Source: a virus
Strand: one strand, 5' to 3'
DNA length: 39,554 bases
Virus record (IMG/VR): IMGVR_UViG_3300010413_000082
Location: 1-39,554 of that record
Shown here: positions 1-37,517 of the stretch, piece after piece
Position numbering within the stretch: the first letter of the stretch is position 1
Layout of the letters: every line of letters begins with the position of its first letter
Translations under genes and position numbers: made by a program
The notes under the pieces: generated by a model
Told to the model about the DNA's origin: nothing
The model's input: only the letters and a program-made list of their open reading frames with translations
The model's database searches: none

Positions 1-143
1 CCGTTATCCCCGGGGGTAGCAACTGACATACCCCCCCGTAATCAGTACGTTCTGCCGCTACTGTAAGTCTACACCCTGGGGGCTCGCACCCCCACGTTGA
101 ATGATTCCGGGCACCTACCTATGTGTCACCGGGTACCCCCCTT

Positions 144-264
144 CGATAGCTACTCGATAGGGGGTCGATAGCTGCTCGATAGCTCCGATACGGGTCAGAC
201 CAGTTGCATGGGTCTCCAATGACCCATGCTCCGATAGCTCGTCAATAGCCCCGCGATAGCCTGA
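144..264. repeat. 11-bp phased CGATAG iteron-like array with central hairpin
   Basis: Units begin at 144, 155, 166 and 177 (CGATAGCTACT, CGATAGGGGGT, CGATAGCTGCT, CGATAGCTCCG) and again at 232, 243 and 254 (CGATAGCTCGT, CAATAGCCCCG, CGATAGCCTGA). Within each group the step is exactly 11 bp. Between the groups lies a perfect inverted repeat, GCATGGGTC (206-214) and GACCCATGC (221-229), with a 6-nt loop. Direct repeats one helical turn apart flanking a hairpin suggest cooperative protein binding on one DNA face, as in iteron replication origins or partition sites. The function is inferred from arrangement only. Confidence 0.8.
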
Positions 265-373
265 ATTGTCGTTTTTCCGGACAGTGTCGGCTCGGGCCCC
301 CAAGCCAAACACCATTGCTTACGCATACTTGCATCAACCTGTCCTGTTCCAGGTCATCCGCTAATGCCCTGTT

Positions 374-403
374 TTGTATCCATCTCAGTGATTTTCGTAT
401 CCT
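374..403 (+). promoter_or_regulatory. Weak sigma70-like promoter candidate
   Basis: TTGTAT at 374-379 and TATCCT at 398-403 are separated by 18 bp, which would place a start site near 410, upstream of the small rightward gene cluster at 437. Both boxes are imperfect and no other support was found. Confidence 0.25.
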
Positions 404-436
404 ACGACTGGCACGCGGCATGCACTACCACCAGAC

Positions 437-4936: not shown

Positions 4937-6179
4937 AGCTCAACCTCGTCACCTTTCCGGCAGGACCTTGGCTGTTCTTCGCAATGAGCACTTCGAGTCG
5001 CCCATCGCCCGCATCGTGGAGAAACAAACATAGCTTGGCGATGATTCCTATCGCATCGCTATGACGATAGTCGCTGAGGCGTGGTCGTCTGTCTTCGCGC
5101 TCGACCTCTTGCTTGATCTGCGAGAGCACAAGCAAGGCGATGTTCTGCTGTGCAGAGAATTCCATCAGGCGCAGCATGTTTTCTTCGATGGCTTCGTGCT
5201 TCTTGAAGCCACGTTGAGGCGATGGCATGTTCTGAATATAATCTATGGCCATCAACCTGAGGCCGGTCCTACGCTTCGCAATCAATGCGCGTCGGCAGAT
5301 GGTCTCAACGCGGCATCCGTGTGCGTGATCGACTGTGAGAAACTTTGGCCACGACTCAGGCACTCCTTGCCATCGCACCTGCTCTGCTACGTCGAGCTCG
5401 TACTGTGTCGCGCGATCGAGTGACACTCTTGCTTGTGCCGCCATGAGTCTTTGCGCAAATGCCTCGCGGCGATCTTCGTACGTGAAAATCGCCACGCCTT
5501 CTTCACGCCTCGCGATGTTAGTAGCGAGCGTTAGGAGGAACGTCGATTTACCTGCGCCTGGTCTTGCGCCAAGCGCCGAGGGTTTGCCAAGAGGGATGCC
5601 GCCTATCGTCGCATCGAGCGCCTTGATCCCTGTCGCTACAAAGTCGGTGATGCGATCTGTCCTACTCAGTAGCGCGCGACGCTTCTGCTCACGTATCGCA
5701 GAGACAAGCGACGTATCTTCCTCGTCTGGCAGTCGCTCGATATGCGCAGCCTTTGCGAGTAAGCTATCAAGCAACTCGTCACCCTCAACGCCACGACGAT
5801 GCTCTGCTGCGATCTCACCACCGAGCAGCAGAGTCTCGCGAGTGATTCGCTTCTGGCGCAAGATGTGGGCGTAGTGCTCGACGTGATGCGTTGACTCGAG
5901 CTGGCTCGTGAGCTCGGCGAGGTCGGCAAGGAATGCGTCGCCTCCAATGGCATCGAGCTTGCCTTGCGTGTGTAAGCGATCGCGCACAAGCAATTCATCA
6001 GCAGTCTGTCGCTCAGCATGTATCCTGCGAGCAGCTTGCCAAATATGGCGATAGCGAAGATCGGCAAAGTGTGAATCGTCGAGATCAAGCCAACCGAGAA
6101 TCTCTGGCTGACGAAAGCAACAAGCAAGAACAGTGCGCTCTGCCTCAGCGTTTGTGGCTATGTCAAAATCAGAAATCAT
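4908..6179 (-). CDS. dnaB: DnaB-like replicative helicase
   Basis: A 423-residue, full-length DnaB-family protein. An N-terminal helical domain (about 10-120, with EAERTVLACCF and HYAHILRQKRI) is followed by a RecA-fold ATPase. The Walker A motif GARPGAGKST is at 204-213, Walker B LMAIDYIQ at about 310-317, and the switch segment VLSQIKQEVEREDRRP at about 351-366. It should assemble as a hexamer and unwind DNA 5' to 3' at the phage fork. No primase domain is fused and no primase gene was found, so host DnaG is presumably recruited. The start lies just inside the end of the initiator-like gene, the usual loader/helicase pairing. Confidence 0.93.
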   Translation of the reverse strand: MISDFDIATNAEAERTVLACCFRQPEILGWLDLDDSHFADLRYRHIWQAARRIHAERQTADELLVRDRLHTQGKLDAIGGDAFLADLAELTSQLESTHHVEHYAHILRQKRITRETLLLGGEIAAEHRRGVEGDELLDSLLAKAAHIERLPDEEDTSLVSAIREQKRRALLSRTDRITDFVATGIKALDATIGGIPLGKPSALGARPGAGKSTFLLTLATNIARREEGVAIFTYEDRREAFAQRLMAAQARVSLDRATQYELDVAEQVRWQGVPESWPKFLTVDHAHGCRVETICRRALIAKRRTGLRLMAIDYIQNMPSPQRGFKKHEAIEENMLRLMEFSAQQNIALLVLSQIKQEVEREDRRPRLSDYRHSDAIGIIAKLCLFLHDAGDGRLEVLIAKNSQGPAGKVTRLSYDRALCEIN

Positions 6180-6978
6180 CGGTTACTTCCTCGGCGAATG
6201 TGTAACCCTCTTCCTCGGCGGTTTTTGGTGCGCCATCGGGGCGCGGTTGCTCTTCGTCCTCCCAGCGGCGGCCGTTCACGTAGGTCGAAAAGTAGGGGAG
6301 GAACTTTCGCTCTTCTGGTGGGGTTCCCTTCCACGCCTGTGCCAGTCCGACAAGCGTCTTGCGACACGCCTCGTAGTCCTCGACTGTGCGGATGGCTTTT
6401 TTGGCTGCCCTGATGCCGTTGGCTCTGTCCTGCTTGCGAGGGTAGAACTCGTATAGCTCTGTCAGCTGTGAAGGGCTGACAAGGGAGCGGTGAACACCGT
6501 TCTTTTTCTTTGCCGGGGAGGGGGTCCTCAGCGACAGCTGAGGAGGGGGTGCGTGAGGATCCCTTTCCTGGTCGTGGTCGTGGTCGTGGTCGTGGTCAGG
6601 CATGAGGATCTCTGGAACATTCGTGAGAGTCTCAGGAACTTTCCAGAATCCCTCGGAAGGCGCTGGAACTCTTGGCTTTCCCGGATGCTGAACCTTTTGA
6701 TGCTTATCCCAATTCACAATCTCGAAAAAAATCTGGTCACGAACCTCGTAGAATCGGATGAAGCCCATTCGAAGCAGCTCCTCAAGAGCTTCATGACCCT
6801 CTCTGTGGTGTGCCGGGAACACGCGTGAAACAATCAAATCCCTGTTGCCAACTCCTCTGCCATAGTCATCGGCGAGGAGGATCAGACCGATGGACATGGT
6901 GCGAGCGGCAGGCGATGCAAGCACCATTTTCTCATCCTCGATCCACTCAGGCTTGACGCTGCGAATTCTTCCTGCCAC
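6169..6978 (-). CDS. Replication initiator/helicase-loader-like protein
   Basis: A 269-residue protein from a GTG start at 6978 (AGGGGG upstream). The N-terminal 105 residues resemble the winged-helix domain of phage replication organisers: GRIRSVKPEWIEDEKM, then LILLADDYGRG, then IFFEIVNWDKHQKV. A linker holds a His-Asp dipeptide run encoded by a hexanucleotide repeat. The C-terminal part (about 165-250, LYEFYPRKQDRANG, then ACRKTLVGLAQAWK, then LPYFSTYVNGRRW) resembles domains that follow such initiators and contact helicase. It lies directly upstream of the DnaB-like gene, so loading that helicase is the likely role. It has no Walker motif. Confidence 0.75.
   Translation of the reverse strand: MAGRIRSVKPEWIEDEKMVLASPAARTMSIGLILLADDYGRGVGNRDLIVSRVFPAHHREGHEALEELLRMGFIRFYEVRDQIFFEIVNWDKHQKVQHPGKPRVPAPSEGFWKVPETLTNVPEILMPDHDHDHDHDQERDPHAPPPQLSLRTPSPAKKKNGVHRSLVSPSQLTELYEFYPRKQDRANGIRAAKKAIRTVEDYEACRKTLVGLAQAWKGTPPEERKFLPYFSTYVNGRRWEDEEQPRPDGAPKTAEEEGYTFAEEVTDDF
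6570..6597. repeat. Hexanucleotide microsatellite (GGTCGT)n
   Basis: Four full GGTCGT units plus a partial one on the plus strand encode an Asp-His alternating linker in the initiator-like protein on the minus strand. Six-base steps keep the frame, so copy-number change would only lengthen or shorten the linker. Confidence 0.85.
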
Positions 6979-7219
6979 GACGCTTACCCCCTGTTACGTC
7001 TTTGATTGAAGGCGTCGGCCCCCAGAATTGCGACATGGAAATCCCGCACGCGTGGCATATCTTAGCTAGGTGCGGGATGGTCACTCCACAGACTGCATGC
7101 TCGTAATGTCCAACAGCTTGCCGCGTTCTTCCTATGCGTCTGGCTAGCTCTGATTGTGTCATTCCTGAGCATGTTCGCCAGTAGGTAACTCGGCGGGCAA
7201 AATCTTCTAGAACGTTCAC
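6947..7219 (-). CDS. Cro/CI-like (XRE) transcriptional regulator
   Basis: A 90-residue protein with a classic XRE helix-turn-helix: RVTYWRTCSGMTQSELARRI, then GRTRQAVGHYEHAVCGVTIP, then LAKICHACGIS. The C-terminus is basic (GGKRRGRKNSQRQ). The GTG at 7219 is chosen because a good promoter (TTGACA, 17 bp, GATACT) puts the transcription start one base before it, so the message would be leaderless. A TTG at 7237 is in frame but lies inside the promoter spacer. It heads the leftward early operon and faces the Bet operon, the usual place for a phage repressor or Cro. No oligomerisation or cleavage domain is present, so Cro-like action is more likely than CI-like. Confidence 0.8.
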   Translation of the reverse strand: MNVLEDFARRVTYWRTCSGMTQSELARRIGRTRQAVGHYEHAVCGVTIPHLAKICHACGISMSQFWGPTPSIKDVTGGKRRGRKNSQRQA

Positions 7220-7226
7220 GGCGCGC

Positions 7227-7255
7227 AGTATCCACAAACGATATTACCCTGTCAA
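7227..7255 (-). promoter_or_regulatory. Leftward early promoter
   Basis: Reading leftward, TTGACA (7255-7250, perfect -35), a 17-bp spacer and GATACT (7232-7227, four of six matches to TATAAT). The predicted start site is about 7220, one base before the GTG of the regulator, implying a leaderless transcript. Confidence 0.7.
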
Positions 7256-8175: not shown

Positions 8176-8838
8176 ATGGGAATGAAGGCAAGATCCGTGT
8201 TGGCCTGGCACTTTGTGTCGAGCAATAGACTACTGCGCTACGGCGATAATAGACTGATCGAAGCAGGCAAAACCTATGAGGCTCCACCCGGCAAGATCGA
8301 ACTCTGTAGCCACGGTATGCACGCGAGTGTGAGACCGTTGGATGCCTTAGAGTATGCTCCAGGCCCTATAATCTGCAGAGTGCGTCTCAGCGGTGAGATG
8401 ATCGAAGATCGTGACAAGATCGGAGCCCGTAGGCGGACGGTGCTTTGGATGGCCGATGCTACAGAAACACTGAGAGCGTTTGCTAGATGGTGTGCTCTGC
8501 AGGTGGTAGATCGTTGGAATGCTCCCGAGGTTGTGCAGCGGTGGCTAGAAACAGGTGACAAATCGTTGAGGAGCGCGGCGTATAGTGCGGCGTGTGCAGC
8601 GGATGCGGCGTATGCGGCGTGTGCGGCGTATGCGGCGTATGCGGCGTGCGCGGCGTGTGCGGCGTATAGTGCGGCGTATGCGACGTGTGCGGCGTATGCG
8701 GCGTATAGTGCGGCGTATGCGGCGTATAGTGCGGCGGATGCGGCGTATGCGGCGGATGCGGCGTATGCGGCGTTGGATGCGGCGAAGGATGCACAGAACA
8801 GACAGCTTACAGAAATGCTGATGGAGCTAGAACCATGA
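8176..8838 (+). CDS. DUF7666-like protein with alanine-rich triplet-repeat tail
   Basis: A 220-residue protein with AAGGAG upstream. The first 120 residues form a compact domain (SVLAWHFVSSNRLLRYGDNR, then ELCSHGMHASVRPLDALEYA, then CRVRLSGEMIEDRDKIGARR, then TVLWMADATETLRAFARWCA) that I associate with the uncharacterised DUF7666 group. Residues about 133-205 are a run of Ala-Ala-X triplets, where X is Tyr, Cys, Ser or Asp, presumably a long helix with a repeating aromatic stripe. It sits between bet and the nuclease gene, so it may serve recombination, but the function is unknown. Tail length could vary by slippage without changing the frame. Confidence 0.7.
   Translation: MGMKARSVLAWHFVSSNRLLRYGDNRLIEAGKTYEAPPGKIELCSHGMHASVRPLDALEYAPGPIICRVRLSGEMIEDRDKIGARRRTVLWMADATETLRAFARWCALQVVDRWNAPEVVQRWLETGDKSLRSAAYSAACAADAAYAACAAYAAYAACAACAAYSAAYATCAAYAAYSAAYAAYSAADAAYAADAAYAALDAAKDAQNRQLTEMLMELEP
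8573..8790. repeat. GCGGCGTAT-type codon-level repeat array
   Basis: About 218 bases are built almost entirely from 9-base units GCGGCG followed by TAT, TGT, GAT or TATAGT, encoding Ala-Ala-Tyr, Ala-Ala-Cys and Ala-Ala-Asp. The repeat keeps several other frames free of stops on both strands, which produces long spurious frames here. Confidence 0.9.
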
Positions 8839-10025: not shown

Positions 10026-10149
10026 TGCTGATCTTCTTCGCGCTCTGCGCACGCCACCGCGCCCTCCGCATTATGGCTGGGCTGCGATCTGTTGTTTTGT
10101 TTCTGCGGCGCTCCTATGGGGTGTCATGGCGTGGATGGGAGCGTGTTGA
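10006..10149 (+). CDS. Possible small membrane protein
   Basis: A frame of about 47 residues ending at 10149 with one strong hydrophobic stretch near the C-terminus (WAAICCFVSAALLWGVMAWM) preceded by a basic, proline-containing segment. The stop overlaps the TTG of the next gene (TTGA). The start is uncertain: TTG at 10006 with AAGG upstream is the best option and lies inside the nuclease gene. An ATG at 10025 opens a different frame with 80 codons, but that frame runs deep into the sigma-like gene and is less likely. Confidence 0.35.
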   Translation: MKNTINNADLLRALRTPPRPPHYGWAAICCFVSAALLWGVMAWMGAC

Positions 10150-10949
10150 ATATCAAGCCATTCCGTCTCGACATGCGCGTACGAAACAATGTCCTTCTGC
10201 GCGCGATCGAAGCACTTGGGTTCCAGTCTGTCTACGCTTTCGCCAAGGCAACGGGACTGGCCTATGAATCTATTAACTGTTACGTGAGCTTGCGTAAGAG
10301 CCCGCTGCGCGTGGACACTAAATCTGTTACCTCCTGTGTGATCTGCGCGCGTCCGACCCACCCCAACTTGGTCGTCTGTCTCGAGCACCGGACGCAGAAT
10401 GATGCCATGATCGAAGAGCACAGCGGAGAGTTGCCATGGGTCTGGCGCAAGTTTCCTTTGCGCTTGGCCGACTTCTTGGGCGTAGATCCCGGCGACCTGT
10501 GGCCGGAGTGTCTTCGCCGTATCGCAAACGCTAAACGTGTTGCTGTCGAGATCGACGAAATGCAGGCGCAGCACCTATCGCAGATTGCAGCGATCGAGTG
10601 CAAGGAATTGAAAGAGGGGATACAGAAGCAGCTCTCGACGCTGTCAGACCGAGAGCAACGTGTAATTCGACAGCGCTTTGGCTTTGGCTGCGAACCCAAA
10701 ACCCTTCGAGAGATTGGGAAGTCAGAAGGTCTGACTGCCCAAAGCATTCAGCAGATCGAGGACATCGCACTGAGACGCCTTCGTCAGGGCGACGGTGGGA
10801 AGCGTTTGCGACAAATCGTAGAAGGCACTGAGGTTGAAGACCGCGAGAAGGCCAAGATCGCTCGGGATCGGGCTGCCGCCGAGCTCGAGGAGAAATCGCG
10901 ACAATGGCAAGAAAAGAATATCAGGGGCAGAAGCGATGACCCCCACTAA
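10146..10949 (+). CDS. Sigma-70 region 4-type DNA-binding protein
   Basis: A 267-residue protein from a TTG start at 10146 (GGGAG upstream, overlap with the previous stop). The N-terminus has an XRE-like helix-turn-helix (AIEALGFQSVYAFAKATGLA), interrupted by a small Cys-containing module (CVICARPTHPNLVVCLEH), then LADFLGVDPGDLWPE. The C-terminal half contains a sigma region 4: LSDREQRVIRQRFGF, then KTLREIGKSEGLTAQSIQQI, then EDIALRRLRQ. No region 2 was seen, so it is unlikely to melt promoters alone. It may redirect host polymerase to -35 elements, for example of late genes. A later internal start cannot be excluded. Confidence 0.72.
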   Translation: MNIKPFRLDMRVRNNVLLRAIEALGFQSVYAFAKATGLAYESINCYVSLRKSPLRVDTKSVTSCVICARPTHPNLVVCLEHRTQNDAMIEEHSGELPWVWRKFPLRLADFLGVDPGDLWPECLRRIANAKRVAVEIDEMQAQHLSQIAAIECKELKEGIQKQLSTLSDREQRVIRQRFGFGCEPKTLREIGKSEGLTAQSIQQIEDIALRRLRQGDGGKRLRQIVEGTEVEDREKAKIARDRAAAELEEKSRQWQEKNIRGRSDDPH

Positions 10950-11505
10950 ACGCTATCCCTGCATCCTCGCCGATCCCCCATGGGCATTCCGCAACGGTGG
11001 CACGCGCGCTGCGCCTCAGTACGAGGGAAAGCAGCGCAAAGCGTCACACTATCAAACGATGAAGCTCACGACTCTACTCGTCGAGGTTGCAGTCATGGTG
11101 CGCCAGCTTTCCGCCGATGACTGCTTCTTGTTTCTCTGGGCACCTAACTCGCTTGTCATCGATGGCACAGCTACAGCCGTTGCTCGTGCATGGGGGTTTG
11201 AGCCAAAGCAACTCATCCCCTGGATCAAGATGACGAAAGATGGTTTCCGGCCGGCGCTTGGTATGGGAAACTATTCGCGCGTTTGCTCGGAGATGATGGT
11301 GTTGGCCAGGCGTGGTCGGCCGAAGGTCTGCAATCGAGCAGTGCCTGGAGTTATCTTTGCGCCTCGCACGCGGCACTCGGCCAAACCGGACGAGAGCTAT
11401 GACCTGATCGAGCGATTGTGCAAGGGGCCGAGGATTGAGCTATTCGCGCGTCGCGAGATGCCAGGATGGAAAGCGTGGGGAGATCAGCTAGATGAGTCGC
11501 CGTAA
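10936..11505 (+). CDS. MT-A70-type N6-adenine DNA methyltransferase
   Basis: A 189-residue protein with the catalytic motif ADPPW at residues 12-16 and the MT-A70 C-terminal signature: HSAKPDESYDLIERL, then GPRIELFARREMPGWKAWGD. Members transfer a methyl group from S-adenosylmethionine to adenine N6. It is an orphan, with no restriction partner in the window, so protection against host restriction or marking of phage DNA is the likely purpose. The start is the ATG at 10936 with AGGGG upstream, 14 bases inside the previous gene; an upstream in-frame extension belongs to the sigma-like gene's region. Confidence 0.88.
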   Translation: MTPTKRYPCILADPPWAFRNGGTRAAPQYEGKQRKASHYQTMKLTTLLVEVAVMVRQLSADDCFLFLWAPNSLVIDGTATAVARAWGFEPKQLIPWIKMTKDGFRPALGMGNYSRVCSEMMVLARRGRPKVCNRAVPGVIFAPRTRHSAKPDESYDLIERLCKGPRIELFARREMPGWKAWGDQLDESP

Positions 11506-35930: not shown

Positions 35931-37517
35931 TCACCCCCAGAAATCGTCGTATTCATCAGTCTCGCCACCGAACCACAGATCAAATTCGCTACGTGGTTTT
36001 GGCTTCTCGAGTGCTTCTACGGCCTTGATAACTCGCTCCCTCGCTGTGAGCGCTGGCGGTCGTGGTTCGTCTTGAAAGAGATGCCTCATCTCGCGTCGTG
36101 CGTAGACAGCTGCATCTGCATGATCATTACGTGCGCTCTTGTCTTCCTTTAGGTTCCCATAGTCGTCAACGGCCCACTGAAGATCCTGAAGTTGCTCTTC
36201 AAGCGCCGAGTCTTTGAGGATCTTGATTTTGCCGTCGATAAGATCGCCGTTGAAGATCTCAATCCAATCGTGCTTGTTTTTCTTCTCCGCGGGAAGGATA
36301 CGAATCCCGTAGACGTTCTGGAGCTCATCGAGAATCGCGCCGCCTAGTCCAGCAGTATCAGCAACCATTCCATCCGGCCAACCGATTGCCCCAATCACAC
36401 CGCCATACTTGTCATGATCTAGCTCGGCGCCGATGAGCACCTTCGCGATCTCTCGAGGGTGCATCTCTCTGCGATCAAAACCGTAGACATGCAAGACCTT
36501 CTCGTAGGTCGGTGAGTAAGCGAAGATATCGAGCGCGAATGGATCTGAGTGCCCTAGATCCATTCCCACGACGTAATGCCAACTATGACCCTCTGGCAGG
36601 ACCGCGAATCCGTTTCGATCGCGCTCTGGATCCCAGCGGTTGTATTCGTTCCCGTCTTCGTCGTGAGGGCGATACTTGAAGATATTTTCCGAGTCGTCGG
36701 AGGCGTGCTCGCCAAGATACTCTCGGCGCCAAACCGGATGTTGATCCGACCATCCTTGCGCCTCTTTTTCGACTAGCGCTTCTTCCCACAGCCGGGCGAT
36801 AGCTGGTACGTAGACGGCTCCTTCTGCGAGTGTCCAATGGTGCGATGACCATTTCTTCCAGTCTCTGAATTCTGGCTTGTTGCGATCGGCGTACGGTCGA
36901 TTGAGGTCACCACCTCGCCGCGTCGCCTCGTAGAATAGGCCTCTCTGTGTCGGCGGAGGAGTGCCGCCGATAGCCAGCGACCCGCCAAAATCACCAAGCC
37001 GAGGGCCAATGACGCGAACTAGCAACGATTCGAGCAGCTGAGGCTTGTACTCCTGAGCCTCATCGACAACCACGTTGTGGTGTGGGATTCCTCTCAGTCT
37101 TCCGACAGCGCGCTTATCGTCTGCTCCTACGAGCCTCAGCGCTGCTTTGTTGCGCGGTAGATAAACGCGTAGTTTCGACTGCTGGAAAACCGCGCCGAGC
37201 CCTAGACGCTCGTTGATGCTCTGCAGAGGCTCCCAGAGGATCTCCTCTGCTTGAGGTCTCGATGGCGCTACATAAAGGCAGCGCGCTTTAGGAGTCGATA
37301 GAAGCGTACGCCAGAAACGCACCTCGAACGCTGTCGTCTTGCCCGCTCCACGAGGGCAAACTAACGACACGCGCCTAGCAGGATCGCATGCGCAATCGCG
37401 CTGCTTGGGGAATGCCGCCTGGGTAACCTTCCCAATGGCTTCTGGCCAGTCAGTGGTAGCCTTGGCCTGAACTGCTCTATATCGTGATGCTAGTAGCGCC
37501 CTTGCGAGCGCTGACAC
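35931..37517 (-). CDS. terL: Terminase large subunit (packaging ATPase/nuclease)
   Basis: A 528-residue protein from a GTG start. Walker A CPRGAGKTT (54-62), Walker B VVVDEAQ (149-155) and a coupling motif IGGTPP (about 183-188) form the motor. The RNase H-type nuclease begins at GMDLGHSDP (Asp 320), with the final acidic residues in NDHADAAVYA near 488. It pumps DNA through the portal and cuts the concatemer. The GAGGG site lies about eight bases upstream. Confidence 0.93.
   Translation of the reverse strand: MSALARALLASRYRAVQAKATTDWPEAIGKVTQAAFPKQRDCACDPARRVSLVCPRGAGKTTAFEVRFWRTLLSTPKARCLYVAPSRPQAEEILWEPLQSINERLGLGAVFQQSKLRVYLPRNKAALRLVGADDKRAVGRLRGIPHHNVVVDEAQEYKPQLLESLLVRVIGPRLGDFGGSLAIGGTPPPTQRGLFYEATRRGGDLNRPYADRNKPEFRDWKKWSSHHWTLAEGAVYVPAIARLWEEALVEKEAQGWSDQHPVWRREYLGEHASDDSENIFKYRPHDEDGNEYNRWDPERDRNGFAVLPEGHSWHYVVGMDLGHSDPFALDIFAYSPTYEKVLHVYGFDRREMHPREIAKVLIGAELDHDKYGGVIGAIGWPDGMVADTAGLGGAILDELQNVYGIRILPAEKKNKHDWIEIFNGDLIDGKIKILKDSALEEQLQDLQWAVDDYGNLKEDKSARNDHADAAVYARREMRHLFQDEPRPPALTARERVIKAVEALEKPKPRSEFDLWFGGETDEYDDFWG

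Follow-up and report, generated by a model that had tools for sequence, protein, structure and literature searches.

The left contig end of a virus record carries a genuine, non-random and phased array of seven CGATAG-like sites at 11-bp steps, a compact candidate cis-element in a phage for which the collections that we searched yielded no close relative. The most likely reading, which we favour only tentatively and at somewhat less than an even chance, is that the array is a terminal element for concatemer processing and packaging. The window, by which we mean the whole 39,554-bp stretch of DNA analysed, is classed as linear and has no end repeats. Within it, the array lies 144–264 bp from the left contig end and 180–290 bp ahead of the first gene that runs rightward (Table 1).

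Table 1 Coordinates of the array and of the window features discussed with it
Feature	Position	Strand	Remarks
Left group, four exact CGATAG units	144, 155, 166, 177 (144–182)	+	11-bp steps
Right group, CGATAG, CAATAG, CGATAG	232, 243, 254 (232–259)	+	Register as in the left group
Extra CGATAC unit	186–191	+	Off the 11-bp register, 9 bp past the preceding unit
Perfect 9-bp inverted repeat with 6-nt loop, between the groups	206–214/221–229 (206–229)		GCATGGGTC-TCCAAT-GACCCATGC
Non-coding left contig end holding the array	1–436		Small rightward genes begin at 437
Replication initiation protein	6169–6978	−	phrog_1408/16167/2149; rival candidate array binder
Degenerate TTCC(N)GAG repeat, inside the initiator gene	6607–6668	−	10/20/21-bp steps; position of the relatives' 11-bp repeat
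Large terminase subunit (TerL)	35931–37517	−	phrog_2, E 1e-30; PF03237 above cut-off
Small-terminase candidate, gene nearest the right contig end	39030–39497	−	By position only

The seven units were found where an earlier, sequence-only reading had described them, as six exact copies of CGATAG and one CAATAG in two groups. Because the distance from the unit at 177 to the unit at 232 is 55 bp (5 × 11), both groups share a single 11-bp register, a link that was absent from that reading. The window has six exact in-phase CGATAG copies versus at most three in shuffled sequences (60 whole-window and 1,000 local dinucleotide shuffles), and the hexamer occurs 33 times in the whole window, compared with 19 ± 4 expected. 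The only phased repeats in the window that are stronger than the array are coding repeats at 8.58–8.78 kb; the 220-amino-acid protein encoded at 8176–8838 contains a long Ala/Tyr-rich repeat (CAAYAAYAA type), which is the source of strong coding repeats of 9 and 18 bp. A 66-amino-acid antisense open reading frame at 115–315 was judged not credible as a gene.

When the array units are aligned, the core TCGATAGC is kept and the spacers have diverged, suggesting that the units are individually selected, putative protein-binding sites rather than the outcome of a fresh tandem duplication. The same pattern is unlike a recent neutral tandem duplication. That the array is a neutral tandem repeat without function, or else a partition centromere, strikes us as very unlikely. 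One CGATAG-N5 array in IMG/VR (L010) does adjoin a ParA gene, but neither ParA nor ParB was matched among the window proteins scanned (a subset of the open reading frames).

The inverted repeat said to separate the two groups was likewise located, and its DNA fold has an energy of −10 kcal/mol (z = −3.8). A search of the array region found no intrinsic terminator or terminator-like site. There were no tRNA or Rfam matches in the window, and a reading of the array as an RNA or tRNA element was dropped. Helical geometry bears on a further claim, namely that all sites face the same side of the helix. On a helix of 10.5 bp per turn, successive 11-bp steps drift by about 17° per unit, so this is right only locally: it holds within each group of three to four sites but not across the whole array, the outermost units of which are 110 bp apart and would lie on nearly opposite faces. 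Wrapping of the DNA, or untwisting to about 11 bp per turn, would avoid this mismatch.

Across IMG/VR, three CGATAG units at 11-bp steps occur at 28 loci, and at 10-bp steps at 8 loci. A control (permuted) hexamer, CGTAAG, formed triple arrays with 11-bp steps at 14 loci. One helical turn per unit is thus a common design, contrary to the initial impression that it is unusual, and the CGATAG hexamer itself is not clearly special; as the control yields half as many arrays, we dropped hexamer identity as evidence.

Some of the CGATAG-N5 arrays (L012, L017, L023 and L026) lie inside a phage replication initiator/helicase-loader gene, in antisense orientation. Other arrays are located upstream of a terminase cluster (L001, L006 and L008) or downstream of TerL (L021 and L025). 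With the three patterns pooled and in records with a TerL match, 16 out of 33 arrays were within 2 kb of TerL (8.5 expected, P = 0.001). This excess disappears when the limit is set at 1 kb, short contigs dilute it, and it is evident in the two CGATAG patterns, whereas the control hexamer on its own does not show it clearly (3 out of 10 versus 2.2 expected). Of 27 non-coding arrays of the three patterns in records no shorter than 15 kb, 8 were no more than 1 kb away from a contig end, compared with 1.9 expected, although this excess is confounded because repeats break assemblies and hence sit at contig ends. These data suggest that phased arrays recur in two settings, in initiator genes, with steps of 8 and 11 bp, and near terminase genes or genome ends, with steps of 10–13 bp. 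If the pattern holds, it would help to locate both the origins and the packaging sites of uncultivated phages. As a separate observation, the in-gene arrays of L012, L017 and L026 encode the motif IDxLSxxYR just ahead of a low-complexity linker, because 11-bp steps pass through all three frames.

The first of these settings raises the alternative that the array is a replication origin. Because homologous initiators carry 11-bp-step repeats, the array is a plausible target of the window initiator: its units would be 11-bp iterons displaced to the genome end, with melting at the AT-richer stretch at about 345–404. We consider this a serious rival, though less likely than the packaging reading. 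The repeats in homologous initiator genes number six in L031, four each in Bernal13, BIB9 and PSonyx, and three in Fyn8, those of PSonyx being at a different place in the gene; the CGATAG-N5 arrays inside initiator genes point the same way, and the lowest-GC 60-bp stretch of positions 1–500, at 345, ranks among the lowest 1% in the window. However, the arrays of the relatives stay in the initiator gene, whereas that of the window is 5.9 kb away from it. The window initiator gene is itself devoid of CGATAG-like sites and has, at the homologous place, its own degenerate phased repeat of another motif (codon-shuffle P of about 0.016 over the gene). This repeat adjoins a stretch whose GC content is among the lowest in the window and is a candidate for an alternative, in-gene origin. 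GC skew, an inflection of which had been suggested as an origin marker, tracks gene direction and shows no turn at the array. The origin put forward by the sequence-only reading is thus supported by the step size of the repeats in homologous initiator genes but not by their location or by the repeat in the window initiator gene.

Further arrays were seen among phages with related initiators. In the actinophages Bernal13 (L076), BIB9 (L084), Beakin (L082), AbbyDaisy (L083), BigBern1 (L074) and WilliamBoone (L081), the initiator gene contains a second array with 8-bp steps, mostly of the GGAACA type and at gene nucleotides 410–450, which in some cases adjoins an 11-bp-step array. The IMG/VR relatives of the initiator (L030 and L031) have little else in common with the window; at its left contig end (7–877), L030 carries a 12-bp tandem array of CGCCAC units in more than 50 copies.

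The array might instead be a multi-site operator, with a phage regulator binding the seven sites cooperatively and controlling the rightward early genes from 437, which we regard as another serious rival, though an unlikely one. An operator would fit this location, the one long non-coding stretch ahead of the rightward genes, and the phage encodes both a sigma-70 region 4 protein and an XRE protein (6947–7237). Single XRE operators, however, tend to be palindromic and to lie close to the gene of their regulator, and the one near-match to an array site at the xre promoter is at chance level, which leaves an XRE operator unsupported. Moreover, positions 1–700 contain only one promoter-like site, which is weak and on the minus strand. 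The sigma-70 region 4 domain forms the C terminus of a 285-amino-acid protein (10092–10949), a possible phage transcription switch, and an MT-A70 methylase reading frame (10834–11505) overlaps the 3′ end of this gene.

For the reading of the array as a terminal packaging element, the arrangement of the window's genes is of interest. From the right end of the window, the genes for head and packaging read leftward, with 2,037 bp between the start of TerL and the contig end; those for replication and recombination (RusA, DnaB helicase, initiator, RecT and exonuclease) are at 3.9–10 kb. No integrase was matched among the window proteins scanned, a subset of the open reading frames. The product of the small-terminase candidate gene had no family match in profile searches, and its single-sequence model (pLDDT of 59) was too poor for a small-terminase fold search. 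The best Pfam match of the portal, SU10_portal, was below the cut-off. Neither TerL nor the small-terminase candidate had close relatives in IMG/VR, and searching INPHARED with both of these proteins, the portal and the tail protein returned only weak partial TerL matches.

The packaging signal that the sequence-only reading had listed among its options is supported by the position of the array, together with the arrays at the ends of T7, SP6 and gh-1, the association with terminase genes and contig ends across IMG/VR, and an SU10-like layout. The linear record without end repeats and the lack of a small-terminase family match for the candidate count against it, and our preference stays tentative. 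Under the packaging reading, the contig ends would be the physical genome ends or close to them. The array would be a strip of protein-binding sites in the terminal region, similar to the T7 short-repeat array beside the left terminal repeat, and would help to recognize or process the junction between genomes in concatemers while DNA is packaged. A small-terminase-type oligomer may bind successive sites cooperatively and bend or wrap the DNA, and the hairpin may mark or assist cleavage. A combined scheme, in which 11-bp iterons of the initiator type relocated from their gene to the genome end and a single phased array acts in replication initiation as well as in terminase docking, is highly improbable in our estimation. 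If true, it would couple replication to concatemer processing, and the 11 slots of 11 bp, 7 of which are filled, would be a wrap path round one oligomeric ring.

Several known systems invite comparison. The array shares exact 11-bp steps with the lambda O-like in-gene iterons (phrog_1408, 2149, 16167 and 1701 families) of several relatives of the window initiator, but the iterons of this initiator family sit after the N-terminal domain, whereas the array is outside any gene. The cos and pac sites recognized by small terminase, such as that of PaP3, are near terminase genes and are bound by an oligomeric terminase subunit, as the sites of the array would be. In the PaP3 model, two HTHs contact a single site of about 20 bp (PMC7672466), in contrast to the seven short sites of the array. 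When read in the opposite direction, the layout is also SU10-like: a few small genes separate TerL from one end by about 2 kb, and inward-running genes at the other end come after several hundred non-coding base pairs. SU10 has 193-bp terminal repeats (PMC4281155), and neither of its ends has a phased array by similar criteria. Because its small genes have no homology to those of the window, this comparison is an argument from layout only.

The closest likeness is to phages of the T7 type. The T7 terminal repeat is 160 bp long (PMC4925675). Near the left genome end of T7, CCTAAAG units at 13-bp steps form two groups, at 175–239 and 267–332, a split into two groups that is also seen in the window. 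The two groups sit just inside the 160-bp terminal repeat, and the T7 short-repeat array has a role in concatemer processing or packaging. SP6 and gh-1 have 12-bp arrays at 260–308 and 245–365, respectively; by similar criteria, no phased array was found at the left ends of T3, phiKMV, LUZ24 and Syn5. As in T7, SP6 and gh-1, the window array consists of short conserved units at a fixed step, is non-coding and lies in the first few hundred bases, before the early genes. It differs from them in its 11-bp step (compared with 12–13 bp), its motif, the hairpin between its groups and in that its ends are known as contig ends only. On this comparison, the array would be a further example of an already known kind of element, and it most resembles the arrays beside T7-type genome ends.
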